DNA of 64,000 nt from Alphaproteobacteria bacterium (lineage in GTDB: Bacteria; Pseudomonadota; Alphaproteobacteria; UBA828): the NCBI GenBank assembly GCA_022826665.1, contig JAJDUK010000031.1:124001-188000 (forward strand), written 5' to 3'. Both the position numbers and the translations under genes were made by a program. Position 1 is the first letter of the stretch. Every line of letters starts with the position of its first letter. The notes beneath the pieces are model-generated. The model was not told the origin of the DNA, did not search any database, and saw only the letters and a list, made by a program, of their open reading frames with translations. This document shows, in pieces, positions 38,290 to 64,000 of this stretch.

Positions 38290-38324
38290 GTCTCCCTCCT
38301 TGGTTGCGGTGTTTACGGTGATGA

Positions 38325-39146: not shown

Positions 39147-39147
39147 C

Positions 39148-45731: not shown

Positions 45732-45744
45732 GAGCGTCACTCCC

Positions 45745-46611: not shown

Positions 46612-46637
46612 CGCGAATCCTCCTGCCTCTGCCCGCG

Positions 46638-47420
46638 CTACACGTCCCAGCCGCCGTCGACCGTGATGGCCTGGCCGGTGATCTGGCGGCTGTCCTCGCT
46701 CGCCATGAACAGCACGGCGTTGGCCACGTCCTGGCAGGTGGTGACACGCTTCAGGCACATCTCCTGAACGTATTCGTCGTACACCTCGTCGATGGTCCAG
46801 CCGCGCACTCGGGCTTTCTCCTCGCAGAGCTTTTGCATGCGCGGCGTCTCGACGATGCCGGGGCAGACGGCGTTGACGTTGACGTTGTACTTGCCGACCT
46901 CCAGCGCGACCGTGCGCGTGATCCCGCGCACCGCCCATTTGGAGGCGCTGTAGGCGGTCCGCATGGCATAGCCGCGCAGGCCCGAGGTGCCGCCGATGTT
47001 GACGATCTTGCCGCTCTTCTGCGCGATCATGGTCGGCACCACGTGCTTGATGGGCAGGAAGGTGCCGATCTCGTTGGCCCTGATGACGTAGTCGAAGTCA
47101 GCCACGTCGATGTCCTGCACCGGCGTCTCGATGGGCCCGGTGACGCCCGCGATGTTGACCAGGATGTCGATGCGCCCGTCGAAGGCTTCGAGGGCCTTGT
47201 CGACCACCGCCTTGACCTCGGCATCTTCGGTCACGTCGCAGGCCGCGACGTGCGCCTCCCGCCCCAGCGCACGCACGTCCGCGGCGACCTGTTCGAGCGG
47301 CTCGGTGTCGCGGGCGGTCAGCACGACATCGGCGCCCTCGCGCGCGAGTGTCGTCGTGATGGCCGCGCCCATGCCCTTCGCGGCGCCGGTGACGATCGCC
47401 TTCTTGCCATCCACTTTCAC
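46638..47420 (-). CDS. Short-chain dehydrogenase/reductase
   Basis: 260 residues of classical SDR: TGAAKGMG cofactor motif, acidic residue after beta-2 replaced by ARDTEPLEQ context (NADP or NAD preference uncertain), NIAGV, and the catalytic YSASK with upstream Ser (GGTSGLRG). In this operon it probably interconverts an alcohol and aldehyde/ketone intermediate. Start GTG 47418-47420 with GGAG nine bases before; 25 nt after hyuB. Confidence 0.9.
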   Translation of the reverse strand: MKVDGKKAIVTGAAKGMGAAITTTLAREGADVVLTARDTEPLEQVAADVRALGREAHVAACDVTEDAEVKAVVDKALEAFDGRIDILVNIAGVTGPIETPVQDIDVADFDYVIRANEIGTFLPIKHVVPTMIAQKSGKIVNIGGTSGLRGYAMRTAYSASKWAVRGITRTVALEVGKYNVNVNAVCPGIVETPRMQKLCEEKARVRGWTIDEVYDEYVQEMCLKRVTTCQDVANAVLFMASEDSRQITGQAITVDGGWDV

Positions 47421-47445: not shown

Positions 47446-49041
47446 TCATCGGCCCTTGGTCTCGGGCTGCCCGTAACCGCCGCCGCCGCAGCTCTCGACG
47501 ATCACCACGTCGTCCCTGTCGAGGCGGAGGTTCGCCTTGCCCGGCATGTCCTCCCGGCTGCCGTCCGCACGCGCGATGGTCACGCGGAAGGGCGCCCCGT
47601 CCTCGCCTCCCTGCAGGCCGTAAGGCGGCACCACGCGGCGCTCGAACATCGAGGTCACCGACATGTCGTCGGTGAGCACCCGGTAGGCGCGGTGCAATCC
47701 CTCGCCGCCCTGCTGCCGGCCGGCACCGCCCGAGCCCCGGCGCAGGCGCTGGCTCTCGATGCGGATGGGGAACTCGGCTTCCACCACTTCGGCCGGCGTG
47801 TTCATCACGTTGGACATGTGGACGCGCACCACCGGCGCGCCGTCGCGGTCGTGCCGCGCGCCCTCGCCGCCGCCGTGGACCTCATAGAGCGTGGTCCAGG
47901 CGCCGTCGGCCCGCCTGCCGCCGAACAGCACCAGGCCCGACGTGGTCGGCCCGCCGGCGGAGATGCGCTCCGGCCCCACGGCTTCGAAGGCCTTGAACAC
48001 GGCGTCGGCGATCCGCTGCGAGGTCTCGTGGTTGCCGCCCACCACCGGGCTCTCCGGCCCCGGATCGAGCAGGGAACCGGGGCGGGTCACGATCTCCAGC
48101 GGGCGGTAGCAGCCGCCGCTCGGCTGGATCTCGGGGCCGAACAGCGTCTTCACCACATAGAAGACCGAGGCCGCGGCGATGAAGGGCGTGGTGTTCACCG
48201 GCCCCCGCGCCGCGTCGTCGGTCCCGGAGAAGTCGAAGCGGGCGCCGTCGCCAGCGATGGTGACGCGCACGCGGACGGCGACCGGCCCGCCGCCGCCGGC
48301 ATCGTCGTCCAGCCAGTCCGCGCCTTCGTAGGTACCGTCAGGAATCGCGGTGAGGGCCGCGCGCATCTGCGCCTCGGCCCGGTCGTGGATCGCGGCGATG
48401 GCGGCCAATACCGTCTCCCGCCCGTGCTCCGCGCAGACGTGCTGAACGCGCTCGTCTGCGGCCCGGCTGGCGGCGACCTGCGCCAGGATGTCGCCCTCGC
48501 GCTCGTCGGCGCCCCGCACGTTGGCACAGATCATGTCGAGCTTCTCGCGGTCGGGGCCTGCGGCGGTGAACAGCCGGAAGGGCGGGATGCGCAGCCCCTC
48601 CTGCCAGGCGTCGGTGGCGCCGGCGACGTAGCTGCCGGGCACCGCGCCGCCGATATCCGCCCAGTGGGCCAGGCTCGCCGCGAAGGCCACGATGGCGCCG
48701 TCCACGAAGATCGGCCGGATCGCCTTCACGTCGGGCAGGTGGTTGCCGCCCACCTCGGGCAGGTTGAGGAACCAGACATCGCTCGGCTCCAGCCTGTCGC
48801 GCGGCACCCGCTTCAGGAACTCGCGCACGGTGAAGCTCATCACCCCCATGTGCATGGGGATGTCGCGGCCCTGGGCGATGAGGTGGCCGTCCGCGTCGGT
48901 CAGCGCCGAGGAGAGATCGCCGGCCTCGCGCAGCAGCGGCGAGCGGGCCGAGCGCATGACCACGAGCGACATTTCCTCCGCCGTCGCCGACAGCGCGTGG
49001 CGGATGACCTCCAGGGTGATGGGGTCCACGGCGCCGCTCAT
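47446..49041 (-). CDS. hyuB: Hydantoinase B / N-methylhydantoinase beta subunit
   Basis: 531 residues of the HyuB/oxoprolinase C-terminal family (DPITLEVIRHALSATAEEMSLVV, GGNHLPDVKAI, VVGGNHETSQRIADAVFKA). With HyuA it forms an ATP-dependent amidohydrolase that opens five-membered cyclic ureides or lactams (hydantoin, N-methylhydantoin, oxoproline); acetone and acetophenone carboxylases are related, so a carboxylase is possible. ATGA overlap with hyuA proves close coupling. Confidence 0.93.
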   Translation of the reverse strand: MSGAVDPITLEVIRHALSATAEEMSLVVMRSARSPLLREAGDLSSALTDADGHLIAQGRDIPMHMGVMSFTVREFLKRVPRDRLEPSDVWFLNLPEVGGNHLPDVKAIRPIFVDGAIVAFAASLAHWADIGGAVPGSYVAGATDAWQEGLRIPPFRLFTAAGPDREKLDMICANVRGADEREGDILAQVAASRAADERVQHVCAEHGRETVLAAIAAIHDRAEAQMRAALTAIPDGTYEGADWLDDDAGGGGPVAVRVRVTIAGDGARFDFSGTDDAARGPVNTTPFIAAASVFYVVKTLFGPEIQPSGGCYRPLEIVTRPGSLLDPGPESPVVGGNHETSQRIADAVFKAFEAVGPERISAGGPTTSGLVLFGGRRADGAWTTLYEVHGGGEGARHDRDGAPVVRVHMSNVMNTPAEVVEAEFPIRIESQRLRRGSGGAGRQQGGEGLHRAYRVLTDDMSVTSMFERRVVPPYGLQGGEDGAPFRVTIARADGSREDMPGKANLRLDRDDVVIVESCGGGGYGQPETKGR

Positions 49042-51053
49042 GGGCCGGCTCCGGTGGCGATGTGGAGGTGGCCGGCGTCATCGGCGGTGAGCGTCGCGCC
49101 CGGCGGCACGACCACGGTCGACCACGCATCGTCCACGATGACCGGCCCATCCAGCGAACTATCCGGGCTCAGGCCCGCGCGGTCGTAGCGCGGCGTCGGC
49201 ACCGATCCGCCGGAATCGAACGTGCAGGGCTGCGTCTTGGTGGGGGAGGGCGGCTCGTTCGCCTTGGTCGTAGGGGAACGCACCTCGCCGTTGCGAGGCG
49301 CCGCGACGCGCATGCGGATCGAGACCAGCTCCCACGGCTCCTCGGTGGCGAAGCCGTAGAGCGCCCGGTGACGCTCAATGAAGGTGCGGCCCAGCTCCAG
49401 CGGGTCGTCGAGCGCCGCATCCGCGATCTCGATGGCGTAGCTCTGGCCGCTGTAGCGGACCGACGCCACCTCCTCGACCGTGAGCGCTGCGTCCTCGTGG
49501 CCGGCCGCCGAGAGCGGCGCGGCGAGGGTCGCGCGGAGCTCCCGCCGCACGCCGTCCACGCGCGCCTGAACCCACGAGTCGGCGGCCATCCGCAGCGTCC
49601 GCTGCTGCGCGTAGCTCATCTCCGCGCCGACACAGCCGAGCGCCGAGAACATGCTGGAATGCGCAGGGACCACCACCTTGTCGATGGCGAAGGCGCGGGC
49701 CAGCGCTACCGCGTGCATGGGGCCCGCGCCGCCGAAGGCGAGCAGCGTGCAGCTGCGCCCGTCGACGCCGCGCTCCACCGTCACTCGGCGCAGCGCCCGC
49801 AGCATCGCCGCGTTCGCCACCCTGACCACGCCCAGAGCCGCGGCCTCCGGCGTCATGTCCATGGCCGAACCGAGCGGCGCGATCACGTCGTGGGCCGCGC
49901 GCGCATCCAGGTGCACGTCCCCGCCCAGCACACGGTCCGTGTCCATGTATCCCAGCAGCAGGTTGGCGTCGGTGACGGTCGGCCGGTCGCCGCCCTTGGC
50001 GTAGCAGGCGGGTCCGGGGACGGCGCCAGCGCTCTCCGGCCCGACCATCAGCGAGCCGTGATCGAGCCGGGCGATGGAGCCGCCGCCCGCACCGATGGAC
50101 TCCACCGCCACCATGGGCTGGCGCAGGGGCCGCCCGCCGAGGGAGCGGTCGCTCGCGATCTGCGCCGCGCCGTCAAGGATCAGGCAGACGTCGGTGGTGG
50201 TGCCGCCCATGTCGAAGCTGATGGCACGCTCGATCCCGAGCGCGCGGGCCATGCGCCCGGCCGCGGCGACACCGGCGGCGGGGCCCGAGGCGGCAAGCCC
50301 GAGCGGCAGGTCGCGGAGCGCCGCAGGCGAGGCCATGCCGCCGGCGGAATGGAAGAGATGCAGCCGGGAGTCCTCCGGTTTCGCCGCCTCCAGGTCGTCC
50401 ATGTACGCCGCCGCCAGCGGCATGACGCCGGCGCTCAGCGCCGTGGTCGCGGTCCGCTCGTATTCCCGCGCCTCGGGATTGACCCGGTGCGAGAGCGCGA
50501 CGTAGGGGAACCGCGCGCGCAGCCTTTCGCCGAGCGCTTCCTCGTGCGCCGGGTTGGCGTAGGAATGCAGCAGCGAGACGGCGACCGCCTCGGCGCCGCT
50601 CGCCGCGACGCGTCCGATCGCGTCCGCCACTGAGTCCGGGTCCAGTGCGGTCATGACCTGGCCGTCGTGGTCGAGCCGCTCGGTCACCTCGAAGCGGCGT
50701 TCGGCCGGCACCTGGGGTGTGAGCTTCGGCGGCAGGTCCAGCCGGTAGAGGTGGCGCCGGTTCTGGCGCCCGATGGCGAGCGTGTCCGAAAAGCCGCGCG
50801 TCGCGATCAGCGCGACCCTCGCGTGCGCACCCTGGATGATGGCGTTGGTGACGATGGTGGTGCCGTGGATCAGGTCGTCCACGTCCGCCCATTGGAGATC
50901 GACCGCGCCGAGCGCCGCCACCAGGCCCGCGATGCGGTCGTCGGTGCGGGAGGGGACCTTCGCGGCTCTCACCTCGCCGCGCGCCCGGTGATGGGCGATC
51001 ACGTCGGTGAACGTGCCGCCGACATCGATACCGACTTGCCATCCCTTCGGCAC
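49038..51053 (-). CDS. hyuA: Hydantoinase A / N-methylhydantoinase alpha subunit
   Basis: 671 residues of the HyuA family: N-terminal ATPase motif VGIDVGGTFTDVI, ISFDMGGTTTDVCLI phosphate loop, and AFGGAGPMHAVALA. It activates the substrate by phosphorylation for HyuB. Start GTG 51051-51053 with GGAGG seven bases upstream. It is the first gene of the minus-strand run that ends with potF, about 64 nt downstream of the palindromic operator. Confidence 0.93.
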   Translation of the reverse strand: MPKGWQVGIDVGGTFTDVIAHHRARGEVRAAKVPSRTDDRIAGLVAALGAVDLQWADVDDLIHGTTIVTNAIIQGAHARVALIATRGFSDTLAIGRQNRRHLYRLDLPPKLTPQVPAERRFEVTERLDHDGQVMTALDPDSVADAIGRVAASGAEAVAVSLLHSYANPAHEEALGERLRARFPYVALSHRVNPEAREYERTATTALSAGVMPLAAAYMDDLEAAKPEDSRLHLFHSAGGMASPAALRDLPLGLAASGPAAGVAAAGRMARALGIERAISFDMGGTTTDVCLILDGAAQIASDRSLGGRPLRQPMVAVESIGAGGGSIARLDHGSLMVGPESAGAVPGPACYAKGGDRPTVTDANLLLGYMDTDRVLGGDVHLDARAAHDVIAPLGSAMDMTPEAAALGVVRVANAAMLRALRRVTVERGVDGRSCTLLAFGGAGPMHAVALARAFAIDKVVVPAHSSMFSALGCVGAEMSYAQQRTLRMAADSWVQARVDGVRRELRATLAAPLSAAGHEDAALTVEEVASVRYSGQSYAIEIADAALDDPLELGRTFIERHRALYGFATEEPWELVSIRMRVAAPRNGEVRSPTTKANEPPSPTKTQPCTFDSGGSVPTPRYDRAGLSPDSSLDGPVIVDDAWSTVVVPPGATLTADDAGHLHIATGAGP

Positions 51054-51331: not shown

Positions 51332-52564
51332 CTACGACGCTCCTTGTCCAGGCTCCGTCGCGTTCACGAGTGCGGCCATGTTTCCGTACGGGTGGCGGTT
51401 CTCGTACATCTGCTGATGCGCCTCGCCGATTTCGTCGAACGAGAAGGTGTGAGACAGGCAGGGGTCGACCTTCCGGTCCATGATCATCCGGTTTACGGCC
51501 GCGGCCTGCTCGTCGTTCGAAAGGTGGCTGCCCTGAAACCGCTTCTGCCGCATCCAGTGGTAGCGAAGGTCGAGTGTCGCGGTGTACCCGGTCGTTCCGG
51601 CGCAAATGACGATCATGCCGCCCGTCGCGCACAGGAATCCCGAGGTCGGCAGCGTCGCCTCGCCTGGGTGCTCAAAGACGATGCGGGGGCTCGCCTTCTC
51701 GCCAGCCGCTTCCCAGAAGGCCTTGCCGAACGCCCGTGCGCCCTTGAACCACTGCCCCCAATCCTTGCTGCTCGTGTCGGGCATCGGACCCCAGTGGTCG
51801 AAATCGTTCCGGTTGATCACGCCGACGGCGCCATGGTCGAGACAGAACTGCCGTTTCTCTTCATCGGACACGACTGCCACCGGTTTACCGCCGTTCGCCG
51901 TCACGATCTGGAGCGCCAGCGCGCCGAGCCCGCCGGCGGCGCCCCACACCAAAACGTAGTCGCCCTCTTCGACGACGTTCGGCGACCAACCCATGAGCAT
52001 TCGGTACGCGGTCGACGCACAAAGCAGGTAGCAGCCGGCGGCCTCCCACGAGAGATGCTTGGGCTTCGGCTGACACTGGTGAGATTGAGCACGGGCAAAC
52101 TGGCAGTAGCTGCCATAATTGGTCTGGTAGCCCCAGATGCGCGTGCTTTCGGCAAGCATGGGGTCGCGTCCGGACAGCACCCACGGGTCGTCCGGCTCCC
52201 ACCAACCGCTATGGACGACGACTTCGTCACCGGGGCGGACGTTCGTCACCTGATCGCCGACTGCGAACACGATGCCCGAGCAGTCGCTGCCACCCGCGTG
52301 AAAGTCTTCCGGCTCTCCCTTCCTCTGCCGGTCGGCGATGACATCGACGGGCTTGCCCAGAGCTGCCCAGACGTTGTTGTAGTTGATTCCGGTTGCCATG
52401 ACGTAGACGAGCACGTCGAGCGGACCGATTTCGGGGGTGTCGATGACTTCTCGCTGCCATGCGTCCTTGGGTTCGCCGAAACGATCCTGGCGCACGGCGA
52501 ACGCATGCATCTTTTCCGGCACCTCACCCAGCGGCGGGCGGTCGCCGAGATCATATAACTCCAT
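51332..52564 (-). CDS. ccr: Crotonyl-CoA carboxylase/reductase
   Basis: 410-residue medium-chain dehydrogenase/reductase of the Ccr family, which reductively carboxylates crotonyl-CoA to ethylmalonyl-CoA with NADPH. Family blocks include [47 protein letters not shown] (nucleotide fold) and [11 protein letters not shown] near the C-terminus. In place of the usual TNFGSFAQF the sequence has TNYGSYCQF. No other ethylmalonyl-CoA pathway genes are adjacent, so it may supply a specialised carboxylated acyl-CoA. ATG 52564 follows GGGAGG. Confidence 0.9.
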
Positions 52565-52663
52565 TTGCTTCCTCCCCTCACGCTCCGCGATCCACATTGG
52601 GGACGAAGCCGCAGGCACTAGGTCTTCACGCGATAACCCGCTATCAGCAGCGCGTGTGTGCTT

Positions 52664-53280: not shown

Positions 53281-53955
53281 TCACGCGGTCTGTGGGATTG
53301 GCAGTCCGAACAGGAAACGCCGGCTGCCGGCCAGCTCCCGGCGCCGCTTCAGGTCCATGGTGCAGTCCTCGGCGGCGTCGAGCGCGCGCACGGCGCTCTC
53401 GTAGAGCGGCAGCGCCGCGGCAACGGCGATGGAAGGCCGGATGCGCTCCACGGTGAAGTCCAGTTTTTCGCGCGCCTGCGCGATGGTGTAGCGGCCGTCC
53501 CGCACCCAATCGACGGTGATCCAGTCCAGGGTCTCCAGGAACGAGAGCGAGTCCGCCGCCTGCACGAAGTCGGCCTCCCAGCCGCCGCCGATCTCGTGCC
53601 GCAGGATGAGCCGGCGCACCCGCCGGATGAACGCCTCGTCCGGCGCCGGCGTGCGGCTGCGCAGCCATTCCTCGACGATGTTCGCAGACCGGGTGGAGTG
53701 CGCGAAGAGGTAGTCGGGATCGTCGAAGCCGTTGGTCGGCGTGCTGGAAGGCCCGCCGGGGAAGAACCGCTCCGCGTCGTGCGTCAATGCCGCGAATTTC
53801 ACTTCGGGCGAGGCCTCCGGGCATATCTTGATGGCCCACATCCGCGTCGCGATGAGATGCTCCAGCTGGTAGAAGCCGTCGAGCCACGCCATCGCATCGT
53901 CTTCCAGCGGCGAGAGACCGGCGTTCGCGTAACGGCCGCGGGCGGGATAATCCAT
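53281..53955 (-). CDS. HD-domain-like protein of unknown function
   Basis: 224 residues. Helical, with LIATRMWAIKICPEASPEVK, FAALTHDAERFFPG, RRLILRHEIGGGWEADFVQA and ADSLSFLETL; the order H...HD...H...D resembles HD-superfamily metal phosphohydrolases (pattern AxxHDxxR and HxxxxxxxxDxxQxADxLS), but I cannot name a family. It is the last gene of the second Cox operon, 10 nt after the large-subunit stop, start ATG 53953-53955. Its 3' end is right against the IS3 remnant, which may have trimmed the original downstream sequence, not the gene. Confidence 0.75.
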   Translation of the reverse strand: MDYPARGRYANAGLSPLEDDAMAWLDGFYQLEHLIATRMWAIKICPEASPEVKFAALTHDAERFFPGGPSSTPTNGFDDPDYLFAHSTRSANIVEEWLRSRTPAPDEAFIRRVRRLILRHEIGGGWEADFVQAADSLSFLETLDWITVDWVRDGRYTIAQAREKLDFTVERIRPSIAVAAALPLYESAVRALDAAEDCTMDLKRRRELAGSRRFLFGLPIPQTA

Positions 53956-53965
53956 CTCGGCTACC

Positions 53966-56329
53966 TCATCGTGGCTCGCGGGCGTTCCTCGCCGCCGACA
54001 GCGCCTGCCAGACGCGCTCCGGCGTGAGCGGCAGGGTCGAAATTTCCACGCCGTAGTCCGCCAGCGCATCGCAGACGGCGTTGGTGATGGCCGCCGCCGG
54101 CGGGATCGTGCCGACCTCGCCGACGCCGCGCACGCCGAAGGGCGTGATCGAGGAAGGGATCTCGGTGTGCAGCAGGTCGATGGGCGGCACGTCCATGATG
54201 GTGGGTGCGAAGTAGTCCAGCATGCTGCCGCTCACGAGCTGGCCCGTGCTTGCGTCGTAGCGCAGCTCCTCCGCCAGCGCCGCGCCCAGCCCCTGCACCA
54301 GGCCGCCCCGCACCTGGCCCTCGACCAGCGGCGGGTTGACCACGACGCCGCAGTCGTGCGCCATCACGAAGCGCTCCACGTCGAACTCCCCGCTCTCGAG
54401 ATCGACCGAGACCACCGCCGCGGCCGTGCCGAACGAGAACGAGGCGTGCGAGGGCTCGAAGTGTGCGGCCGCCTCCAGGCCCGGCGCTTCGTCTTCCGAA
54501 ATCCCCTGGCCGATGATGGCGCGGGTGAAGATGTCGGCGAGCGACACGGTGCGGCCGGGCTCGTCCGCCACGCGCACGGCGCGCCCGTGCACCTCCAGCG
54601 CATCCGGCGTCGATTGCAGCACCATGGCCGCGATGCGAAGCGTCTTGTCGCGCAAAGCGTCGGCGGCCTCGCGAATGGCGCCGGCGGCGGCGATCAGGGT
54701 GCGCGAGGCGAAGGCGCCGGTATTGAGCGGCGATGCCCCGCTATCCCCGGCATGGATGGTGATGGCCTCGTAGTCGATGCCGAAGACCTCGGCGCAGACT
54801 TGCGCGAACGCCGTCTCGCTTCCTTGCCCGAAGGTCGAGACGCCGGTGTAGAGGTCGATGCCGCCGGAACGGTTGGCGCGTAGGACGACGCTCTCGTGGG
54901 CGCCGAAGCGCGAGCCCCGGCCCGCGAGGAAGCGCGCGCTGGCATAGCCCGTGCGCTCGACGAAGGAGGCGAAGCCGATGCCCGTCAGCCGGCCGTCGTC
55001 GTGGCATTCCCGGCCTACGGCGCGGTGGGCGTCGTAGTCCACCGCGTCGGCGGCCATCTGAAGAGTCTTCAGGTAGTCGCCGTTGTCGTAGACCGCGCGG
55101 CTCGGCGTGGTCCAGGGCAGGTCTTCGGGCCGCAGCATGTTCGTTCGCCGCAGCTCCAGCGGGTCGACATCCAGGCGCCGCGCCAGCCGGTCGATCAGGA
55201 CCTCCAGGGCGAAGTTGACCTCCGGCTGGCCGTAGCCGCGATAGGCCCCGATCGGCGTCTTGTTGGTGAGGGCGACGCGGCGCTCGACCGCTGCATCGGC
55301 CACCTTGTAGGGGCCGGTGAAGACCACGCTGGAAAGCTGCGCCGAGCCGTAAGTCGAGTTCCAGGCGCCGAGGTCGGTGGTGTACTGGTTGGTGATCGCG
55401 ACGATGCGGCCGTCGGCCTCGGCGCCGATGCGGACCTCGTGCACGGCCTCGCGCGCCTGGGTGCTGGCGCGGAAGAACTCGAGGCGATCCTCGATCCACT
55501 TGACCGGACGCCGCAGCGCCATGGCGTGCAGCACCGCCAGCACGTCCTCCGGATAAAGCCCGAGCTTCATGCCGAATCCGCCGCCGACATCGGAGGCGAT
55601 GACGCGGATGCAGCCCTCGTCGAGCGGCAGGCACTCCGCCAGCTGCTGCCGGATCAGGTGCGGCGTCTGGGTGGAGGCGTGGACCTCCAGCGTGCGGGCG
55701 CCGGCGCGCCAGTGGGCGACGATGCCGCGCGCCTCCATGGGCAGCGCGCTCACCCGGTTCACGTGGAAGCGCCCCTCGACGACGACCGGGGCCTCGGCCA
55801 AGCGGGCCTCCGGCTCGCCGGCGCGGTCCACGTTGCTGGTCAGCAGGTTCGAGGGCAGGGTCTCCCGATGCAGCACCGGCGCGTCGTCGGCGAGCGCGCC
55901 CAGCGTGTCGGTCACGTGCGGCAGGGGCTCGTAGTCGATGTCGATCAGCTCCAGCGCGTCCTCGGCAATGGCACGGCTGGCCGCGACCACGCTCACCACC
56001 GGCTGGCCCTCGTGGATCGCCTCCTCGCCCGCCAGCGCGTAGTAGGGCAGCAGCGGCGCGCCGGGCACGGGCCTCAACACGGTCAGCGGCTCGCTCGCGG
56101 CCCGCACGTCGGCGCCGGTCAGGATGTGCCGCACGTCGGCGAGCGCGCGGGCTTGCGCCACGTCGATGGCGCCGATGGCGGCGCGGGGGAAGGGGCAGCG
56201 GCCCACCGCCATCTCCAGCTGATGGGCAAGCTGTACGTCGTCGGTGAAGAGGCCGTCGCCGCGCAGCAGACGGTCGTCCTCCTTGCGCGGGAGCGCGGCG
56301 CCGATGAGGCTCTGGCGGGGTGCGCTCAC
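53966..56329 (-). CDS. Molybdenum hydroxylase large subunit (form II CoxL type)
   Basis: 787 residues. Hammerhead N-domain, then IASDVGGGFGMKLGLYPED, the AYRGYGQPEVNFALE active-site loop of form II enzymes, and GVRGVGEVGTIPP with the catalytic Glu. It hydroxylates an unknown substrate; form I CO dehydrogenase is excluded by lack of AYRCSFR. Start GTG 56327-56329 overlaps the small-subunit stop (GTGA). Confidence 0.92.
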   Translation of the reverse strand: MSAPRQSLIGAALPRKEDDRLLRGDGLFTDDVQLAHQLEMAVGRCPFPRAAIGAIDVAQARALADVRHILTGADVRAASEPLTVLRPVPGAPLLPYYALAGEEAIHEGQPVVSVVAASRAIAEDALELIDIDYEPLPHVTDTLGALADDAPVLHRETLPSNLLTSNVDRAGEPEARLAEAPVVVEGRFHVNRVSALPMEARGIVAHWRAGARTLEVHASTQTPHLIRQQLAECLPLDEGCIRVIASDVGGGFGMKLGLYPEDVLAVLHAMALRRPVKWIEDRLEFFRASTQAREAVHEVRIGAEADGRIVAITNQYTTDLGAWNSTYGSAQLSSVVFTGPYKVADAAVERRVALTNKTPIGAYRGYGQPEVNFALEVLIDRLARRLDVDPLELRRTNMLRPEDLPWTTPSRAVYDNGDYLKTLQMAADAVDYDAHRAVGRECHDDGRLTGIGFASFVERTGYASARFLAGRGSRFGAHESVVLRANRSGGIDLYTGVSTFGQGSETAFAQVCAEVFGIDYEAITIHAGDSGASPLNTGAFASRTLIAAAGAIREAADALRDKTLRIAAMVLQSTPDALEVHGRAVRVADEPGRTVSLADIFTRAIIGQGISEDEAPGLEAAAHFEPSHASFSFGTAAAVVSVDLESGEFDVERFVMAHDCGVVVNPPLVEGQVRGGLVQGLGAALAEELRYDASTGQLVSGSMLDYFAPTIMDVPPIDLLHTEIPSSITPFGVRGVGEVGTIPPAAAITNAVCDALADYGVEISTLPLTPERVWQALSAARNAREPR

Positions 56330-56817
56330 CGCGAAGCCTCGGGCTCGTCCGCGTTCAGGTACTCCTCCACCGCGCGCAGGATGTTCTCGTAGCCGGTGCA
56401 GCGGCAGAGGACGCCCACAAGCTCTTCGCGGACTTCCGCGCGGGAGAGCGTCCGTCCGCTCGCCTTCAGGCTCTCCGCCAGCATCAGGAAGCCCGGCGTG
56501 CAGTAACCGCACTGCAGCGCGTGGTGCCGCTTGAAGGACTCCTGAGCGGCGTTGAGGCGGTCGCCCTCGGCCAGGGCTTCGACCGTTGTCACCTCCGCGC
56601 CGTCCAGCTGCACGGCGAGCATGAGGCAGGACTTGATGGCGGCGCCGTCCACCAGGATCGTGCACATGCCGCAGACGCCCTGCTCGCAGCCGACGTGGGT
56701 GCCGGTCCAGCCCAGGCGGTGGCGCAGGAAGTCGGCCGCGTGCATGCGGACGGGTGCGTCTGCTGATACCGCCTCGCCGTTCAGGCGGAAGGCGATGGCG
56801 CGTTCAGTGCCGCTCAA
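56326..56817 (-). CDS. Molybdenum hydroxylase small subunit (2x 2Fe-2S, CoxS type)
   Basis: 163 residues. Ferredoxin cluster CEQGVCGMCTILVDG with CLMLAVQ, and helical-domain cluster CGYC/CRCTGYENI. The start is taken as TTG 56815-56817, seven bases after GGAGG, which overlaps the end of coxG by 14 nt; a longer frame upstream lies wholly inside coxG. Electron carrier between the Mo and FAD chains. Confidence 0.9.
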   Translation of the reverse strand: MSGTERAIAFRLNGEAVSADAPVRMHAADFLRHRLGWTGTHVGCEQGVCGMCTILVDGAAIKSCLMLAVQLDGAEVTTVEALAEGDRLNAAQESFKRHHALQCGYCTPGFLMLAESLKASGRTLSRAEVREELVGVLCRCTGYENILRAVEEYLNADEPEASR

Positions 56818-57310
56818 CGGCTGCCTCCCCGGGTCGGGGCGCCGCGCCGGGCGCATCGGCGGCCGAAAGCGCTTGCTCCAGGTTGCAAGCGAATTGGGCT
56901 GTCACCTTCGCGGCGTGCTTGTTGATCACCGCGCTGCCGACGGTGCCGAGCACGCCGGCCAGCGCGACCTCGCCCTCCACCGAGACGCAGGTCTCGCCGC
57001 CCGCCTCCGTCAGCGTCACCGCGTTCTGGGCGCGGAAGTTGCCGACCGCGCCGCGCACCGCCTTGCCGGTGGCGGTGAACGCGATGCGCGCGCCGGCGAC
57101 GCGCTCGGTGATGCGGACCTTGGCCTGGAAAGTCGTCGACATGGGCCCGAGTTTTTGGGTCGCGCGGACGGAATAGCTGTCGTCCTCGCTCTCCAGCGGC
57201 TCCGCCGTCTCGACGCCGGGCATGCACTGCGCGACCTCCAGCGGCCGCTCGAAGAAGCGCCAGACCGTATCGCCGCTCGCCCGGACGCGGAACTCGTGGC
57301 GATACTTCAT
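56804..57310 (-). CDS. CoxG-like SRPBCC protein
   Basis: 168 residues of the CO-dehydrogenase subunit G family (START/Bet v1-like cavity fold): PLEVAQCMPGVE, GPMSTTFQAKVRITE, SVEGEVALAGVLGTVGSAVI. In Oligotropha CoxG helps anchor the enzyme at the membrane; the presence of coxG here marks the operon as a full Cox-like set. ATGA overlap with the FAD subunit stop. Confidence 0.9.
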   Translation of the reverse strand: MKYRHEFRVRASGDTVWRFFERPLEVAQCMPGVETAEPLESEDDSYSVRATQKLGPMSTTFQAKVRITERVAGARIAFTATGKAVRGAVGNFRAQNAVTLTEAGGETCVSVEGEVALAGVLGTVGSAVINKHAAKVTAQFACNLEQALSAADAPGAAPRPGEAAVERH

Positions 57311-58179
57311 CGCGCGGCCGCCTGCGCCGAGGCGCGCAGGTCGCGCAGCACCCGCGCGACGTAGATCGGCACGAGATGGGCGCGGTACTCGGCCGAGCCC
57401 CGGATGTCGTCGGGCGGATCGATGGCGCGGAGCGCGGCCCCGCCCGCCGCCGCGATGTCCGCGTCGTCGAGGCGGCTTCCTTCCAGCAACGCCATGCTGG
57501 CCTCGGCCAGAACCGGCGTGTCGTTGACCCCGCCGAGCCCGATGCGAAGCCCGCGCCAGCGGCCGTCGTCGGCCATCCGCCCGGTCGCCGCCACCGAGAG
57601 CACGCAGAAATCGTTGTGCCGGCGGCAGCACTCCCGAAAGGCGAAGTGCGGCGGATGCGGCGGCACGCGGACCTCCGTCAGCACCTCGTCGGGCGCGAGG
57701 GTGGCGGTGTAGGCGCCCTCGTAAAGGTCTTCCATCGCGATGGTGTGCGCGCCGGAAGGCCCGAGGACGCTGACCGTTGCGCCTAGAACCAGGCAGCCCA
57801 GCGGCATTTCGCCGGTCGGGTCGCCCTGAACCAGGCTGCCGCCGATTGTGCCGCGATTGCGCACCTGCCGGTCGCCGACGAAGGCCACCATCGCCTTGAG
57901 CAGCGGCAGCCGCTCCGCCACGAGCGGGGAGAATTCCAGTGTGGAATAGCGCACCAGCGCGCCGATCCGGGTCTCGTCGCCCTCTGCCGTGAGTTCCGCG
58001 AGGTCGGTGAGCCCGTTGATGTCGACCACCGCGTCCGGGCGCCAGAGCCGCATGTTCATCATCGGCATCAGGCTCTGGCCGCCGGCCAGGACGCGGGCGC
58101 CGCCGTCGTAGTCTTGCAGGTGGCGCACCGCTTCGGCGATGTCGCCCGGCCGGTGGTAGGCGAAGTCGGCGCTCTTCAC
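57307..58179 (-). CDS. Molybdenum hydroxylase FAD subunit (CoxM type)
   Basis: 290 residues. Flavin motifs VLAGGQSLMPMMNMR and RNRGTIGGSLVQGDPTGEM, then the C-terminal CO_deh_flav domain (about 175-285). Start GTG 58177-58179 overlaps the kinase-subunit stop (GTGA), so the Mo hydroxylase is translationally coupled to the split PEP-synthase-like pair. Confidence 0.92.
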   Translation of the reverse strand: MKSADFAYHRPGDIAEAVRHLQDYDGGARVLAGGQSLMPMMNMRLWRPDAVVDINGLTDLAELTAEGDETRIGALVRYSTLEFSPLVAERLPLLKAMVAFVGDRQVRNRGTIGGSLVQGDPTGEMPLGCLVLGATVSVLGPSGAHTIAMEDLYEGAYTATLAPDEVLTEVRVPPHPPHFAFRECCRRHNDFCVLSVAATGRMADDGRWRGLRIGLGGVNDTPVLAEASMALLEGSRLDDADIAAAGGAALRAIDPPDDIRGSAEYRAHLVPIYVARVLRDLRASAQAAAR

Positions 58180-59273
58180 GGCTCTCGCTGTCCGGGGCCC
58201 GCCGTCGCCACCCGGCCGCCCGACAGCCTGGCGAGCACATGCCCGACCGCACTCCGGCTCTCGGAGACGAGGCCGGCACTCTCCCGCTGGCTCCACACCG
58301 TTTCGGGCCGGACCTGGAGCACCCGCACTTCGCCGTCCGCGCCGATGGCCCATTCGATGTCCTGCGCTGCGCCGCGGTGCCCCTCGATCCGCTTGGCGAG
58401 CCGTGCCAGCGCGAGCGCCTCGGCGTCGTCGATGCAGGCCGTCTGTCCCCGCTCGGGCGCGAGCGGCATCAGGCACACCGCGTTGGCGGTGGGATCGAAG
58501 CGGTATTCCTCGGCTTGCGGCACGACGTCCCGCTTGACGATCTCCAGCGTCACCTTGTCGACGGTGAAGCGGCTCGGCGTCACGTCGCCCTTCACCACGC
58601 CCTCGCCGAGACCCCAGCAGGCCTCCATGACGATCTTGGAGCGATCGCCGTTGAGCGGATCGAGGGTGAACATGACGCCGGCGGCGCGCGCCTCCACCAT
58701 CTGCTGGATGCCGACGCAGATGCCGTCGCCGCCCGCGGCCGCCGCTTCGCCGCCGCCCGCCCGGTAGGAGAGCGCCGCGTCGCCGAACATGCTGGCCCAG
58801 CATGACCGGACATGCCGCAGCACGGCATCGGCGCCCGCGATCCAGAGATAGGTGTCGTACTGGCCCGCGAAGCTCGCATCAGCGAGGTCCTCGGCCTCAC
58901 CGCTGGAGCGCACCGCCACCGGCACGCCGGCCCGGCCCGTCCTCTCCTCAAGCGCAGCGTAGTTGCGCCGGATTGCCGTCTCCAGCGTGCCCGGCATCGG
59001 GGTCGCGCCGATGGCGTCGGTCAGCCGCGCCCGCGCGCTGCCGATCTCCGCGAGCGCAGAGCGGCGGGCGGCCTCCCTCACGAACGCGGCCTTGTCGTCG
59101 AGGCCCGCGTGGGCCATGAAGACGCGATAGGCCGTTGTGGTCACGCCGAACCCCACAGGGACAGCGAAGCCGGCCGCCGTCATCTCGGCGAGGCTCGCGA
59201 ACTTGCCCCCGAGCAGCGGGTTTCCCGGCGCGCCTTCCTGATCCAGCCACAGAATGTGGGGATCGTCGCTCAC
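58176..59273 (-). CDS. PEP synthase/PPDK N-terminal ATP-binding domain as a separate subunit
   Basis: 365 residues comprising only the ATP-grasp nucleotide-binding half of PEP synthase/pyruvate phosphate dikinase: GGKFASLAEMTAAGF, PVAVRSSGEAEDLADASFAG, GVMFTLDPLNGD, and QDIEWAIGADGEVRVLQVRPE at the end. The phospho-histidine domain is on the neighbouring gene. The arrangement matches phenylphosphate synthase subunit 2 (about 40 kDa) of Thauera, which activates phenol with ATP. Start GTG 59271-59273 overlaps the partner stop (GTGA). Confidence 0.88.
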   Translation of the reverse strand: MSDDPHILWLDQEGAPGNPLLGGKFASLAEMTAAGFAVPVGFGVTTTAYRVFMAHAGLDDKAAFVREAARRSALAEIGSARARLTDAIGATPMPGTLETAIRRNYAALEERTGRAGVPVAVRSSGEAEDLADASFAGQYDTYLWIAGADAVLRHVRSCWASMFGDAALSYRAGGGEAAAAGGDGICVGIQQMVEARAAGVMFTLDPLNGDRSKIVMEACWGLGEGVVKGDVTPSRFTVDKVTLEIVKRDVVPQAEEYRFDPTANAVCLMPLAPERGQTACIDDAEALALARLAKRIEGHRGAAQDIEWAIGADGEVRVLQVRPETVWSQRESAGLVSESRSAVGHVLARLSGGRVATAGPGQREP

Positions 59274-61156
59274 GGCGCGGCTCGCTCCAGAACTGTGACC
59301 GTGCCTTCGTTGCCGTCCACCTCGACGCGGTCGCCGGTGCGGATCGTCGCCGTCGCGAAGCCCACGCCGACCACCGCCGGCAGCCCGTATTCGCGCGAGA
59401 TGATCGCGGTGTGGGCCATCATGCCGCCCACGTCGGAGACCGCCGCGCCGATACGGCCGAAGACCGTCGCCCAACTCGGCGCCGTGATCCGGCACACCAG
59501 GATCTCGCCCTCGCTGACGCTGTAGAGGTCTTCGGTGCGGGTGATCACGCGGGCCGGCCCGGTCACCTTGCCGGCGGACGCGGGCACGCCGCGCAGGACA
59601 TCGCCGGCAGCGGTGGGATCGACGCCGAGCCACTCCTCGATCGTCTTTTCGGTGATGCCCCAGAGCATGATGGTGATGGGCTCGGTGACGACATCCGGCG
59701 GGGTTCCCAGCGCGGGTGGCGGCGTCCACTTGCAGAGCGAATCCCGGATGCGCCGGCGCCGCTGGACGATGGGCCGCCAGTAGACCTCACCGCGCGGCGG
59801 CGTGCCCGTGGCCCAGCCGATCAACAGGTCGTAGAGCGCGTCGTAGACCTCGTGGCGATGCAGGTAGAAGAGGTCCTCGCGGTCGTCGAGGAAGCCGTGC
59901 GCGACGAAGACATCCGCAAGCTCCCGCACCTTCGACCAGAAGATCGTGTGGTGCCAGTGTTCGACGTAGAAGTTGTGGTCCTCGACGTAGGGAAAGACCT
60001 TGCAGGTGAGCGCGAGCAGGCCGTCGAAGGCCTCGCGGTCCCGATCGGTGGGCAGCAGCGCGCGGTACTCCGCCGTCACCCGCTGGCGCTCCGCCAGCAG
60101 CCGCTCGAGCGGGCGGCGGATGTCCTCGCCCCGCCCTAACGCCTCGACGTAGCCCCGCAGCGCGATGAACGGCAGCCGCAGGTCGTCGATCCAGACCGGG
60201 TCCGAATGGTCGTAGCCGACGCCCGTGGAGAAGTGGAACCAGGGCTCCTTCGCCGCCTCGAAGGCCTCCAGCCATTCGGCCCCGCCGTCTGCCTCCGCCA
60301 TGGCGGCCAGTAGCGCGTCCGGGTCGTCGTGTTGCAGGACGACGCCGGCGAGGTTCTGCTCGACCGCCAGTTCGGCCAGCTCGCGGACCTTGTCGTCCGG
60401 CCGCAGCAGCAGGTTGTCGATGCCGCAGACAATTTGAGTCAGCGTCCGATCCGTGATGCCGGGGAACGCCTGCTGGCAGAACTCGCGGAAGGTCAGGTAG
60501 GCGCCGTAGCCGAGGTTCAGCATCTCGAAATGGTAGGAGCCCATCTCGAGCATGTTCTCGATCAACCGGTTGTAGGCGCTGAGCAGGTCGTGGGAGGAGT
60601 AGACGCCGCGATGGCCGAAGACGTTCTCTTCCGGCTCCAGCTCCGGCAGCGGGCGGAACTCGATCTCGTTCAGGCGGGCGATGCAGTCTTTCGCCTTCTC
60701 CGCCCAGTTGCCGTAAATCTCGTCCCAGTTCTCGAAGTAGTGGCCGGCGCGGCGGGTGAAATGCTCGTTCCGCGCCGCGATCTGCTCGGGGTCGGTGACG
60801 CTGTTGGGGCTGACGTAGATGTAGCCGTTCACCAGCCGCTGATCGATGCCCATGGCGACCGGAATCGGCCAGACCCGGCTCGCCATCTGGCTGGCCGCGA
60901 CCCACCAGTTCTCGGTCATGATGGTGTCGAAAGGGTAGAGTGGCTCCGGGTTGTGCATCCCGTCGAAGAACCAGAACTTTCCCTCCTCCATCGCGCGACG
61001 CTCGTCGCTGATCAGGCAGTAATAGGGATATAGCTCCTCCCAGCCCTCGGCGCCGTCGGGCGTGGGCAGTTCGAACGGGCTCGGGAAGCCCCGGTTGGGG
61101 GGCGGCGTCGCCGCGGCCTCCGGGCCTGTCCCGGCGCTCTCGGGTGTATCACTCAT
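59270..61156 (-). CDS. PEP synthase-like phospho-histidine subunit
   Basis: 628 residues. The C-terminal 100 residues are a PEP-utilising mobile domain with the phosphorylatable His in VGGMMAHTAI (H582) and YGLPAVVGV; the N-terminal 500 residues are a distinct helical region with NWWVAASQMASRVWPIPVA and VGYDHSDPVWIDDLRLP. No pyruvate-binding TIM barrel is present. Size and architecture resemble phenylphosphate synthase subunit 1 (about 70 kDa). With the ATP-grasp partner it would transfer the beta-phosphoryl group of ATP to an unknown hydroxylated or amide substrate. Start ATG 61154-61156; ribosome site weak. Confidence 0.85.
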   Translation of the reverse strand: MSDTPESAGTGPEAAATPPPNRGFPSPFELPTPDGAEGWEELYPYYCLISDERRAMEEGKFWFFDGMHNPEPLYPFDTIMTENWWVAASQMASRVWPIPVAMGIDQRLVNGYIYVSPNSVTDPEQIAARNEHFTRRAGHYFENWDEIYGNWAEKAKDCIARLNEIEFRPLPELEPEENVFGHRGVYSSHDLLSAYNRLIENMLEMGSYHFEMLNLGYGAYLTFREFCQQAFPGITDRTLTQIVCGIDNLLLRPDDKVRELAELAVEQNLAGVVLQHDDPDALLAAMAEADGGAEWLEAFEAAKEPWFHFSTGVGYDHSDPVWIDDLRLPFIALRGYVEALGRGEDIRRPLERLLAERQRVTAEYRALLPTDRDREAFDGLLALTCKVFPYVEDHNFYVEHWHHTIFWSKVRELADVFVAHGFLDDREDLFYLHRHEVYDALYDLLIGWATGTPPRGEVYWRPIVQRRRRIRDSLCKWTPPPALGTPPDVVTEPITIMLWGITEKTIEEWLGVDPTAAGDVLRGVPASAGKVTGPARVITRTEDLYSVSEGEILVCRITAPSWATVFGRIGAAVSDVGGMMAHTAIISREYGLPAVVGVGFATATIRTGDRVEVDGNEGTVTVLERAAP

Positions 61157-61249: not shown

Positions 61250-62179
61250 CTACTCGGCGGCGGCCGCGGCCTCCTGCGGCTCCCACTCGGGGATGCGGCC
61301 GTCGTAGTAGGGCATCTGCTCGACCCGCGGCGTCCACGAGCCGTCGTCGATGCACTGGCGCACGTGGCGCGCGATCTCGTCCATGGTCGCGAACCAGACA
61401 CCGCCCTTCTGCTGCAGCGCCTCGATCCACGCCGCCACGCGGCGCATCCGCGCGAGCCTGCCCGACACGAAGGGGTGCCAGACGGTGATCAGCACGCCGC
61501 CGTTTTCGTACATCGCCTCGAACTCGGAATCGAAGACCCGCATGGCCTCGTCCGGCGACTTGATGGTCATGGTGTAGTGGAAGTCGAGGCTGTGCATGTA
61601 GTGCGGCCAGTCGTCCATGCCCCAGTGAGAGGGCAGGCAGATGACCTCGCCCTTGGGCGTGTTCAGCAGGTAGGGCACGTCGTCGCCCATCAGGCTCGCG
61701 TCGTAGAGCATGCCGCGCTCGGCGAGCAGCGTCGGCGAATGCTTGGAGGCATTGTAGAGCGGCGCGCGCCAGCCGCGCGGCACCCGGCCGGTCATGCGCT
61801 TGATCACGTCGATCTGCCGGTCGAGCCAGTACTCCTGGCGGTCGCGGGATTCGTCGTTGGGGTTCTCGTGGAGGTAGCCGTGGGCCGCGATCTCGTGCCC
61901 ACCCTCCAGGATCGCATCCACCAGATGCGGATAACGCTCCATGCACCAGGCCGGATAGAAGAAGGTCTGCTTGATGCCGTAGTGCGCGTAGACCTTCAGG
62001 ATCCGCGGGATCGCCACCTCGTCGTACTTCAGGAACGAGTTGGCCGAGAGCATGTTCTCGGCCTTGTCGGGGAAATCGAGGTGCAGGATGCTGTCGGTGT
62101 CGATGTCGAAGGTGATGGCCACGGCGCAGCGCGCGCCGTCCGGCCACGGCACCGGATTCTCGATCAGCTTGAGCGTCAT
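61250..62179 (-). CDS. Polysaccharide-deacetylase-fold hydrolase (CE4, PuuE/HpPgdA-like)
   Basis: 309 residues of the NodB/CE4 superfamily in the subgroup that acts on small cyclic amides or ureides as well as glycans. AITFDIDTDS gives the catalytic Asp, HEIAAHGYLHE the metal His pair, GWRAPLYNAS the Arg, and VWHPFVSGR the late His. There is no signal peptide, so a cytoplasmic deacylase or ring-opening amidohydrolase (allantoinase PuuE is a relative) is more likely than peptidoglycan deacetylation. ATG 62177-62179 follows GAGGAGGGAA. First gene of the second Cox operon, divergent from the Lrp regulator. Confidence 0.9.
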   Translation of the reverse strand: MTLKLIENPVPWPDGARCAVAITFDIDTDSILHLDFPDKAENMLSANSFLKYDEVAIPRILKVYAHYGIKQTFFYPAWCMERYPHLVDAILEGGHEIAAHGYLHENPNDESRDRQEYWLDRQIDVIKRMTGRVPRGWRAPLYNASKHSPTLLAERGMLYDASLMGDDVPYLLNTPKGEVICLPSHWGMDDWPHYMHSLDFHYTMTIKSPDEAMRVFDSEFEAMYENGGVLITVWHPFVSGRLARMRRVAAWIEALQQKGGVWFATMDEIARHVRQCIDDGSWTPRVEQMPYYDGRIPEWEPQEAAAAAE

Positions 62180-62368: not shown

Positions 62369-63022
62369 ATGAGCGCCTCGAAACCATCCTCGCAGGCGAA
62401 GGGGAACAGCCGGGAGCCTCGGCTTCGCGCGCTGGCGGAGGGCGAGCCCGCGCCGGTCATGGGGCTGCGCCAGGTGGGGATGGCGGACCTGCAGGGCGAT
62501 GCGGTCGCCCCTGCCTCGATCCCCCATATCGAGGGGCTCAACCGGGAGATCGTCGCCCTGCTGCAGGAGGACGGTCGGATGCCCTTCTCCAGCATTGCGC
62601 GCACGCTGGGCGTCTCGGAAGGGACCGTGCGCTCCCGCGTCGGCCAGATGCACAAGGCCAACCTGATCCACTTCATTACGGTGGTGAACCCGCTGGCGCT
62701 GGGCTACACGGCCTGGTCGATGCTCGGCATCAAGGTCGCCCGCGGCGCCAGCGCCCATGAGGTGGCGTCCCACTTCCGCGATCGGCCGGAGGTCGTCTAT
62801 GTCATGCGTGTCGCCGCGCGCTACGACCTGCTGGCCGAGGTGGTGTGCGGCTCGCCCGACGAGTTGCGCGAATTCCTCGATGACCATTGCTACGGCTCGG
62901 ACGACATCGCCCAGGTCGAGCCGATGATGGGGCTGGGCCTCTACAAGAGCCTGTTCAAGTGGGACAAGCCGCTCGGCGCCGGCGATGGCCGCGGCAAGTC
63001 GGCCGGGCGCAGCAGCCGGTAG
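62369..63022 (+). CDS. Lrp/AsnC-family transcriptional regulator
   Basis: 217 residues. After a 60-residue poorly conserved N-terminal extension, an AsnC helix-turn-helix (LNREIVALLQEDGRMPFSSI, ARTLGVSEGTVRSRVGQM) is followed by the RAM/ligand domain (VVNPLALGYTAWSMLGIKV, YVMRVAARYDLLAEVVC). The extension is unusual, since typical Lrp proteins begin at the HTH. It is divergent from the CE4-Cox operon and 38 nt upstream of the RidA gene, so likely regulates both. ATG 62369 follows GAGAGG. Confidence 0.9.
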   Translation: MSASKPSSQAKGNSREPRLRALAEGEPAPVMGLRQVGMADLQGDAVAPASIPHIEGLNREIVALLQEDGRMPFSSIARTLGVSEGTVRSRVGQMHKANLIHFITVVNPLALGYTAWSMLGIKVARGASAHEVASHFRDRPEVVYVMRVAARYDLLAEVVCGSPDELREFLDDHCYGSDDIAQVEPMMGLGLYKSLFKWDKPLGAGDGRGKSAGRSSR

Positions 63023-63060
63023 CGGCCAACGCATAAAAAGAAAGGGGAGACCAACCGCCA

Positions 63061-64000
63061 TGAGCAAGCGCCGCATCATGCCTGCCGGACACTGGGACTG
63101 GAGCATGCCGATCACGCTCTCCCAGGGCTGGCGGCTGGGCGACCTGGTCGTGGTCGGCGGCCAGATTTCGGCGGACGCAAAGGGCCGCACGGTCGGCGGC
63201 GACATCGAGACCCAGACCCGCAACATCATGGAGTTCATCGGCCGCGTGCTGCGCGAGTCGGGCGCCGACTTCGGCGATGTGGTGAAGCAGAACGTCTACT
63301 ACGTGGTCGATGACGAGAGCCCGCCGGCGGACGAGATCGTGCGGCGCATCGACGCGGTACAGGCCGAGTATTTTGCGGCGCCGGGCCCGGTCACGACCGA
63401 GACGCCGGTCTCCGGCCTCGCCTACGAGGGGCTGTTGCTGGAGATCGACGCCTTTGCCGTGGTGGGCGCGGACAAGCGCCCGCTCATGCCCGAGGGCCAC
63501 TGGTCGCGTGGCAACGGCATCGCCTGCGTCCAGGGCTGGCAGGCAGGCGACTGGGTCTTCGTCGGCGGCCAGCGCTCGCTCAACGGCGACGGCTCGCTCA
63601 GGGATGCCGGCGACATTGGGGCGCAGACCCGTAATTGCTTCAACGGCATGGCTGGCGTCCTTGCCGAGGCCGGCGCCTCGATGAACGACCTCTTGCGCCT
63701 CAACACCTACTACCGGCACGAGACCGCGGGCGCCGACGTGACCGCGTTCTGGGAGGCGCTGACCCGCGTGCGCATGGAGCACCTGCCGAACCCGGGGCCC
63801 GCCGGCACGGGGCTCAGGGTCAAGGATTTCTCCCATCCGGGCGAGCTGATTCAGATCGAAGGCGTCGCCCATCTCGGCCGGGAGCGCCGGCGCATCATGC
63901 CGGCGGGCCACTGGGACTGGAGCATGCCGGTGCCGTTCTCCCAAGGCTGGCGGGTTGGCAACGTCGTTTTCGCGGGCGGCCAGATCTCCGCCGATCAGAA
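63061..64000 (+). CDS. Tandem RidA-domain protein, truncated by the window
   Basis: 313 codons are visible and the frame is open at the edge. Two RidA/YjgF-like domains follow each other (about 10-135: DLVVVGGQISAD, GDIETQTRNIMEFIGRVL, NVYYVVDD; about 145-270: DWVFVGGQRSLN, GDIGAQTRNCFNGMAGVL, NTYYRHET), and then RRIMPAGHWDWSMP recurs at residue 279, starting a third domain identical at its start to the first. The repeat unit is about 274 residues. RidA proteins deaminate reactive enamines/imines; a multi-domain tandem is unusual. ATG 63061 follows GGGGAG. Confidence 0.9.

Follow-up and report, generated by a model that had tools for sequence, protein, structure and literature searches.

A seven-gene cassette occupies the minus strand of a 64,000-nucleotide stretch of an alphaproteobacterial genome (GTDB lineage UBA828; assembly GCA_022826665.1, contig JAJDUK010000031.1, positions 124,001 to 188,000), referred to here as the window. 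From its upstream end it encodes the two components, H and I, of a split dikinase, the FAD, CoxG/SRPBCC, [2Fe-2S] and molybdopterin subunits of a molybdenum hydroxylase, and an HD-superfamily hydrolase, and sequence comparison identifies it as a conserved, presumably catabolic unit. It is proposed, with a probability of roughly 0.6, that the dikinase phosphorylates a hydroxy-N-heterocycle, that the molybdenum hydroxylase hydroxylates it, and that the HD protein removes the phosphate. A more specific version is tentative and somewhat short of an even chance: the phosphate ester would be the sole form in which a small hydroxy-N-heterocycle is hydroxylated, with the HD phosphohydrolase setting it free afterwards; the same cassette would serve across two phyla and, in the window's genus, feed a lower pathway other than NicX–NicD–NicF–NicE. 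An earlier note, made from the letters of the window, had suggested ATP activation before or after hydroxylation; the view that ATP activates a small aromatic or heterocyclic compound, at some point around its hydroxylation, is still judged the best.

The two-component dikinase

The first two genes divide the domains of a dikinase between them. The 628-residue product of the leading gene (59270–61156; ATG to TGA) has PF00391 as its sole Pfam domain, at residues 548–618, and the 365-residue product of the second (58176–59273; GTG start) has only PF01326, the ATP-grasp/PEP-synthase N-terminal domain, which covers almost the entire protein with a score of 304 bits. The letters GTGA belong both to the stop of the leading gene and to the start of the second. 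Thus the separation of ATP-grasp and phospho-His halves into neighboring genes, and the overlap between them, both described in the earlier note, are borne out by the domain matches and the coordinates.

The 500 residues preceding the phospho-His domain, which the same note called novel, belong instead to a known though unnamed family. In an NCBIfam search, NF006153/PRK08296 spans residues 22–625 at 795 bits (cut-off 578), and the protein comprises a substrate-binding domain of the rifampin phosphotransferase (RPH) type (about residues 24–515) and a swivel/phospho-His domain (about 518–625). RPH aligns to the AlphaFold model (mean pLDDT 85) with a Z score of 24.5 over 480 residues, and chains of PEP synthase and pyruvate phosphate dikinase (PPDK) match it essentially on the swivel domain alone. 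RPH has the same three domains and fold order as the window pair but is a single chain that inactivates an antibiotic, and its identity is about 20%. The same relation to RPH has been published for HpeH (PMC12167813). The swivelling C-terminal TIM barrel of a full PEP synthase or PPDK, a feature at odds with the earlier note's reading, has no Pfam match in either the 628- or the 365-residue protein and is absent from the model of the former; a full enzyme of that kind was rejected.

The 628-residue protein carries the motif SDVGGMMAH, with His582 as the predicted catalytic residue, and the motif is kept in all 36 alignment rows that cover the region. It fits the published dikinase motif T/S-x-x-G-G-x-x-x-H, which contains the catalytic histidine and no regulatory threonine (PMC12167813). 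His582 is the counterpart of His581 of HpeH; the preceding residue is alanine in the window, cysteine in HpeH and serine in CreH and PpsA, and the C580A variant of HpeH retains activity (PMC12167813). The best PDB match of the 365-residue protein, at 226 bits, is 9GOJ, which is HpeI (PMC12167813).

Split small-molecule dikinases are an acknowledged two-component subfamily, in which CreHI and HpeHI have been characterized besides the Thauera enzyme (PMC12167813), so that the view of Thauera aromatica phenylphosphate synthase as the only well-known parallel is outdated. Because domain content, RPH fold, HpeI match and catalytic motif agree, the window pair is assigned by sequence to this subfamily as a new member beside PpsAB, CreHI and HpeHI. 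The earlier note had also remarked on the lack of a CBS-domain subunit and a carboxylase. Neither is found among the annotated neighbors, but the missing CBS subunit is no peculiarity, since the subfamily is described as two-component.

HpeHI, the hydroxyphenylethanone kinase of Rhodococcus rhodochrous GD02, has the same split architecture and RPH-type fold, but a biotin-dependent carboxylase and a NagD-like phosphatase follow it, whereas the window pair precedes a molybdenum hydroxylase. PpsAB of Thauera, Aromatoleum and Azoarcus is a homologous two-part dikinase; the 628-residue protein is colinear, with 45% identity over 609 residues, with the PpsA-type protein beside ppcBDAG in Azoarcus. 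A PpsC-type CBS protein and phenylphosphate carboxylase genes adjoin the Azoarcus locus, but neither is among the scanned neighbors in the window.

More distant split dikinases show further arrangements. At locus L022 (6899–11809), a single ATP-grasp protein precedes a tandem of PEP-utilizing proteins that are 47% and 52% identical to that of the window, and two substrate-binding components may share one ATP-binding component there. In Chloroflexi, at L018 (7617–9077) and loci related to it, UbiD-family carboxylases and IclR regulators accompany the split dikinases, which suggests Pps-like carboxylation pathways. Haloarchaeal plasmids also host a split dikinase; on the Haladaptatus plasmid of L049 it lies near a ring-hydroxylating dioxygenase.

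The molybdenum hydroxylase and the HD protein

Four separate genes encode a four-component molybdenum hydroxylase downstream of the kinase: coxM for the FAD subunit (57307–58179; PF00941, PF03450), coxG for the SRPBCC subunit (56804–57310; PF06240, 62.6 bits), coxS for the [2Fe-2S] subunit (56326–56814, start approximate; PF00111, PF01799) and coxL for the molybdopterin subunit (53966–56329; PF01315, PF02738, PF20256). GTGA is shared by the ATP-grasp gene and coxM and by coxS and coxL, and ATGA by coxM and coxG; these overlaps between neighboring genes imply translational coupling along most of the operon. CoxL has an AYRGYGQ active-site loop and Glu742 in a GVGEVG motif, both motifs being identical in 13 rows of the alignment. 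By analogy with CoxG homologues, for which a membrane-anchoring role has been described (PMC11962113), the CoxG/SRPBCC subunit is a probable membrane anchor.

The seventh conserved gene lies beyond coxL (53281–53955) and encodes a protein of 224 residues. A protein of 186–235 residues is encoded after coxL in all 12 cassette loci in which this region is covered, and a profile built from it has no match in the other 23 loci. Pfam gives only sub-threshold matches to HD and DUF4202, and a sequence search of the PDB with this protein returned only chance matches. An H...HD...D pattern is nonetheless evident, with His40, His66–Asp67 and Asp142 invariant (numbering of a 231-residue stretch), and the predicted structure (pLDDT 87) has the HD fold, with Z scores of 13.1 to 2PQ7 and 12.2 to YpgQ. 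Fold and position thus point to a metal-dependent phosphohydrolase. The assignment is kept as a prediction because the HD family also holds other activities, among them cyanamide hydratase, which appears among the Foldseek matches. If the prediction is correct, a conserved protein that lacks a curated Pfam match would gain a role.

Conservation of the cassette

Genome contigs were scanned, yielding 30 loci with homologues, and synteny was counted from tblastn. Where identity is at least 67%, the pair is followed by coxM in 14 of 14 loci, and by coxG, coxS and coxL as well wherever the contig reaches. At 56% identity or below, the pair is not followed by cox genes, apart from a loosely similar molybdenum-hydroxylase set near L019 and in Thermomicrobium. 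In a maximum-likelihood tree of 37 sequences, the 15 Cox-linked ones form a single clade (support 100/100) that spans Proteobacteria, including Acetobacter, Pusillimonas, Salinicola and Paraburkholderia, and one Mycobacterium. The coupling of the kinase pair to the hydroxylase, proposed in the earlier note, is upheld by the gene overlaps in the window and by this clade-wide linkage. That note had held that relatives with the pair but without Cox genes would speak against the coupling; such relatives exist, but only at a distance and not within the closer clade.

The cassette is otherwise uncommon. It is found in 5 of 22 genomes of the window's own order, and an even draw over the class gave matches in 3 of 385, two of the three being only 42% identical. 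Such rare and patchy occurrence is as expected of a transferred catabolic module. In the plasmid collection, the only homologues fall below 50% identity, and no plasmid record in it has the cassette.

Neighboring genes and the likely substrate

The genes that accompany the cassette in relatives favor a hydroxypyridine over a phenol. NicX adjoins or interleaves the cassette in six loci (L009, L011, L012, L016, L017 and L033), most of which also have NicD-, NicF- and NicE-like genes and often an ammonium transporter and a GntR regulator. Of the 14 cassette loci, 6 thus have NicX close by, as against none of the 23 others (Fisher p 0.0013, the rows not being independent). In PDB comparisons, the cluster NicX scores 310 bits to the 2,5-dihydroxypyridine dioxygenase 7CN3, and the NicE-like protein 218 bits to the maleate isomerase 4FQ7. 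The earlier note, which overlooked both these neighbors and the HD hydrolase, had named phenolic substrates among its candidates; these now appear less favored than a hydroxypyridine.

The breakdown of 3-hydroxypyridine passes through 2,5-dihydroxypyridine and N-formylmaleamate, and in Agrobacterium DW-1 its hydroxylation yields 2,5-dihydroxypyridine (PMC6525221). The 3-hydroxypyridine dehydrogenase HpdA of Ensifer adhaerens HP1 (Wang et al. 2020, AEM 86:e01313-20, as cited in PMC11962113) is encoded by a "four-component gene cluster", and a CoxG homologue is its proposed membrane anchor (PMC11962113). By that description, HpdA resembles the window enzyme in being a four-component molybdenum hydroxylase with a separate CoxG/SRPBCC subunit, and it is linked to 2,5-dihydroxypyridine, like the NicX-bearing relatives of the window cassette. 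Wang and colleagues reportedly found that HpdA activity involves both a PEP-utilizing protein and a pyruvate-phosphate dikinase.

The 3-hydroxypyridine dehydrogenase clusters already reported are most likely the group to which the cassette belongs. In relatives where it stands beside NicX, NicD, NicF and NicE, it most likely converts 3-hydroxypyridine to 2,5-dihydroxypyridine. The window kinase subunits are 67–73% identical to those of the NicX-bearing relatives, and to judge from this similarity the window enzyme most likely catalyzes the same reaction or a close variant.

A proposed reaction sequence

The kinase mechanism is established in homologues and by analogy would apply here. ATP held by the ATP-grasp protein would pyrophosphorylate His582; one phosphate would be lost, and the swivel domain would then carry the β-phosphate to a substrate hydroxyl in the RPH-type pocket. 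With 3-hydroxypyridine as substrate, the dikinase would act on the 3-OH to give 3-pyridyl phosphate. The molybdenum hydroxylase would introduce a hydroxyl group from water at C6, the carbon beside the ring nitrogen, to form 6-oxo-1,6-dihydropyridin-3-yl phosphate, and the HD protein would hydrolyze the phosphate ester to release 2,5-dihydroxypyridine. Sequence and structure prediction show the domain make-up, the conservation of the cassette, the HD fold and the neighboring genes; the sequence in which the enzymes act, the function of the HD protein and the compound used by the window organism are all put forward here as proposals.

Precedent for such a sequence is found in the catabolism of 4-cresol, where creC-D-E-F-G-H-I-J encode an aldehyde dehydrogenase, a phosphohydrolase, P450 partners, an alcohol dehydrogenase, kinase H, kinase I and a P450. 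In the CreHI–CreJEF–CreD system of Corynebacterium glutamicum, as in the window, a two-component dikinase, an oxidase and a phosphohydrolase are combined in one operon. The cre system uses a P450 where the window has a molybdenum hydroxylase, and the H component is only 46% identical (over 610 residues and colinear, against the CreH-type protein of a cre-like operon of Rhodococcus). The Rhodococcus clusters keep the cre gene order, and where creD would stand they encode an HD-domain protein. A cre operon in which the P450 is exchanged for a molybdenum hydroxylase would have the gene set of the window cassette. The carboxylase of the Hpe pathway likewise requires phosphorylated compounds, from which a phosphatase subsequently releases the product.

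Several observations weigh against the proposal. The phosphorylated pyridine intermediate is itself predicted. In sequence, the HD protein and the CreD-type HD protein are not significantly similar; direct homology was therefore rejected in favor of a likeness at the level of fold, and the role of the protein is argued from fold and context. Two cassette loci, L010 and L014, have full flanks but no NicX within them. The window genome has no NicD orthologue at an E value of 1e-10, its NicE-type match is only 25% identical, and its NicX homologue (45%) is on a separate contig.

The reason for starting the catabolism of such compounds with phosphorylation has been called unclear (PMC12167813). 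A kinase of the same type that feeds a molybdenum hydroxylase, rather than a carboxylase or a P450, and is paired with a dedicated HD hydrolase makes the purpose of phosphorylation testable. Should the hydroxylase turn out to take the phosphate ester and nothing else, the phosphate would be a removable recognition handle, used with three or more downstream enzymes of unrelated kinds. Less is known of two parts of the system, the HD hydrolase with its strict conservation and the proposed phosphate-handle mechanism for a molybdenum hydroxylase; the kinase split itself is already published.

Alternative explanations

The most probable alternative, though with less than an even chance, is that in the window's genus the cassette has been redeployed toward another N-heterocycle or hydroxylated aromatic compound, together with a CapAB-like ATP-dependent lactamase, a PuuE-like hydrolase, RidA proteins and a diiron monooxygenase. 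Instead of the Nic block, the window and its nearest relatives do have in common genes for a deacetylase, Lrp, RidA and a NitT/TauT-type transporter, CapA/CapB-like genes lie at 47446–51053, and the lack of NicD and the weak NicE match in the window genome point the same way. However, the kinase and hydroxylase subunits are 60–76% identical to those of NicX-bearing clusters, a NicX homologue is present elsewhere in the genome, and CapAB is not kept at the cassette in L008, where an amidase takes its place. A smaller probability attaches to the reverse order of steps, in which the kinase would phosphorylate the dihydroxypyridine product for trapping or activation and the HD protein would be an editing phosphatase. 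The sequence of reactions cannot be read from the arrangement of the genes alone, and NicX, present in some cassettes, requires free 2,5-dihydroxypyridine, so the phosphate must come off in any case; the HpeHI authors moreover propose that phosphorylation traps a diffusible substrate (PMC12167813). Against hydroxylation as the opening step, phosphorylation comes first in all three characterized relatives named, Pps, Cre and Hpe (PMC12167813), the Hpe carboxylase takes only the phosphorylated compound, and the kinase genes head the operon.

A phenylphosphate-synthase system, in which phenol would be phosphorylated for carboxylation and the Cox genes would be bystanders, is very improbable and was disfavored. 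The whole-length similarity to PpsA would suit it, but neither a Ppc/UbiD carboxylase nor a CBS gene is present among the annotated neighbors, whereas Azoarcus Pps has both and one Chloroflexi pair has UbiD, and the Cox linkage holds throughout the clade. Form I CO dehydrogenases have a CSFR active-site loop. That the window holds an aerobic CO dehydrogenase operon into which unrelated kinase genes were inserted is suggested by the CoxMGSL naming and by the presence of coxG, but CoxL scores 547 and 485 bits against the curated CO dehydrogenase models (cut-offs 950 and 991) and the AYRGYGQ loop is found in 13 of 13 rows; this explanation was rejected and is given almost no weight. Phosphorylation of a hydroxy-N-heterocycle ahead of its hydroxylation is thus preferred.

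Surroundings of the cassette in the window lineage

At the cassette site, the NicX/D/F/E block is missing from the window and the relatives nearest to it; most relatives do show adjacent lower-pathway genes. The NicX homologue of the window genome (contig C49; L036:1498–3815) scores 274 bits to 7CN3; it adjoins a Rieske oxygenase and a sugar-type binding protein, with no NicD, NicF or NicE nearby. NicF-type isochorismatases are numerous in the genome and not diagnostic. Since NicD and NicE orthologues are missing, the lower pathway or the substrate may differ. The lower pathway probably does differ from NicX–NicD–NicF–NicE, so that this lineage either has a different way of breaking down 2,5-dihydroxypyridine or starts from a closely analogous substrate.

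Around the cassette are genes for a PuuE-like hydrolase, a RidA-repeat protein, an Lrp regulator, a NitT/TauT-type ABC transporter and diiron-monooxygenase-like, ccr-like and CapAB-like proteins. The PuuE/polysaccharide-deacetylase-family gene (61250–62179, minus strand; PF01522; TIGR03212 at 83 bits, below cut-off) stands just upstream of the operon, is kept only in the genus-level relatives (L006–L008), and is a possible lower-pathway gene. Divergent from the cassette, at 62985–63998 on the plus strand and running past the window (L005:486–1796), is a gene for a 436-residue protein with apparently three RidA-type repeats, each starting near MPxGHW; it is kept in the three nearest relatives. 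Just past the window (L005:4738–6258), beside the NitT/TauT-type transporter, is a diiron-monooxygenase-like large subunit that has no NCBIfam match and is kept in L006 and L008. It could be an aromatic or N-heterocycle monooxygenase.

Downstream of the cassette, a crotonyl-CoA-reductase-family (ccr) gene (51332–52567) is followed by the CapA/CapB-like pair of the caprolactamase/hydantoinase family (47446–51053, minus strand), which scores well below the caprolactamase cut-offs. Genes for ccr and capA also follow the cassette in L006, and the amidase follows it in L008. Farther along, a pyruvoyl-type histidine-decarboxylase-like protein (41193–42131, minus strand; TIGR00541 at 152 bits, cut-off 347) is encoded next to a Pot-type polyamine ABC transporter (37252–41162) and a second xanthine-dehydrogenase-like enzyme (42925–46938).

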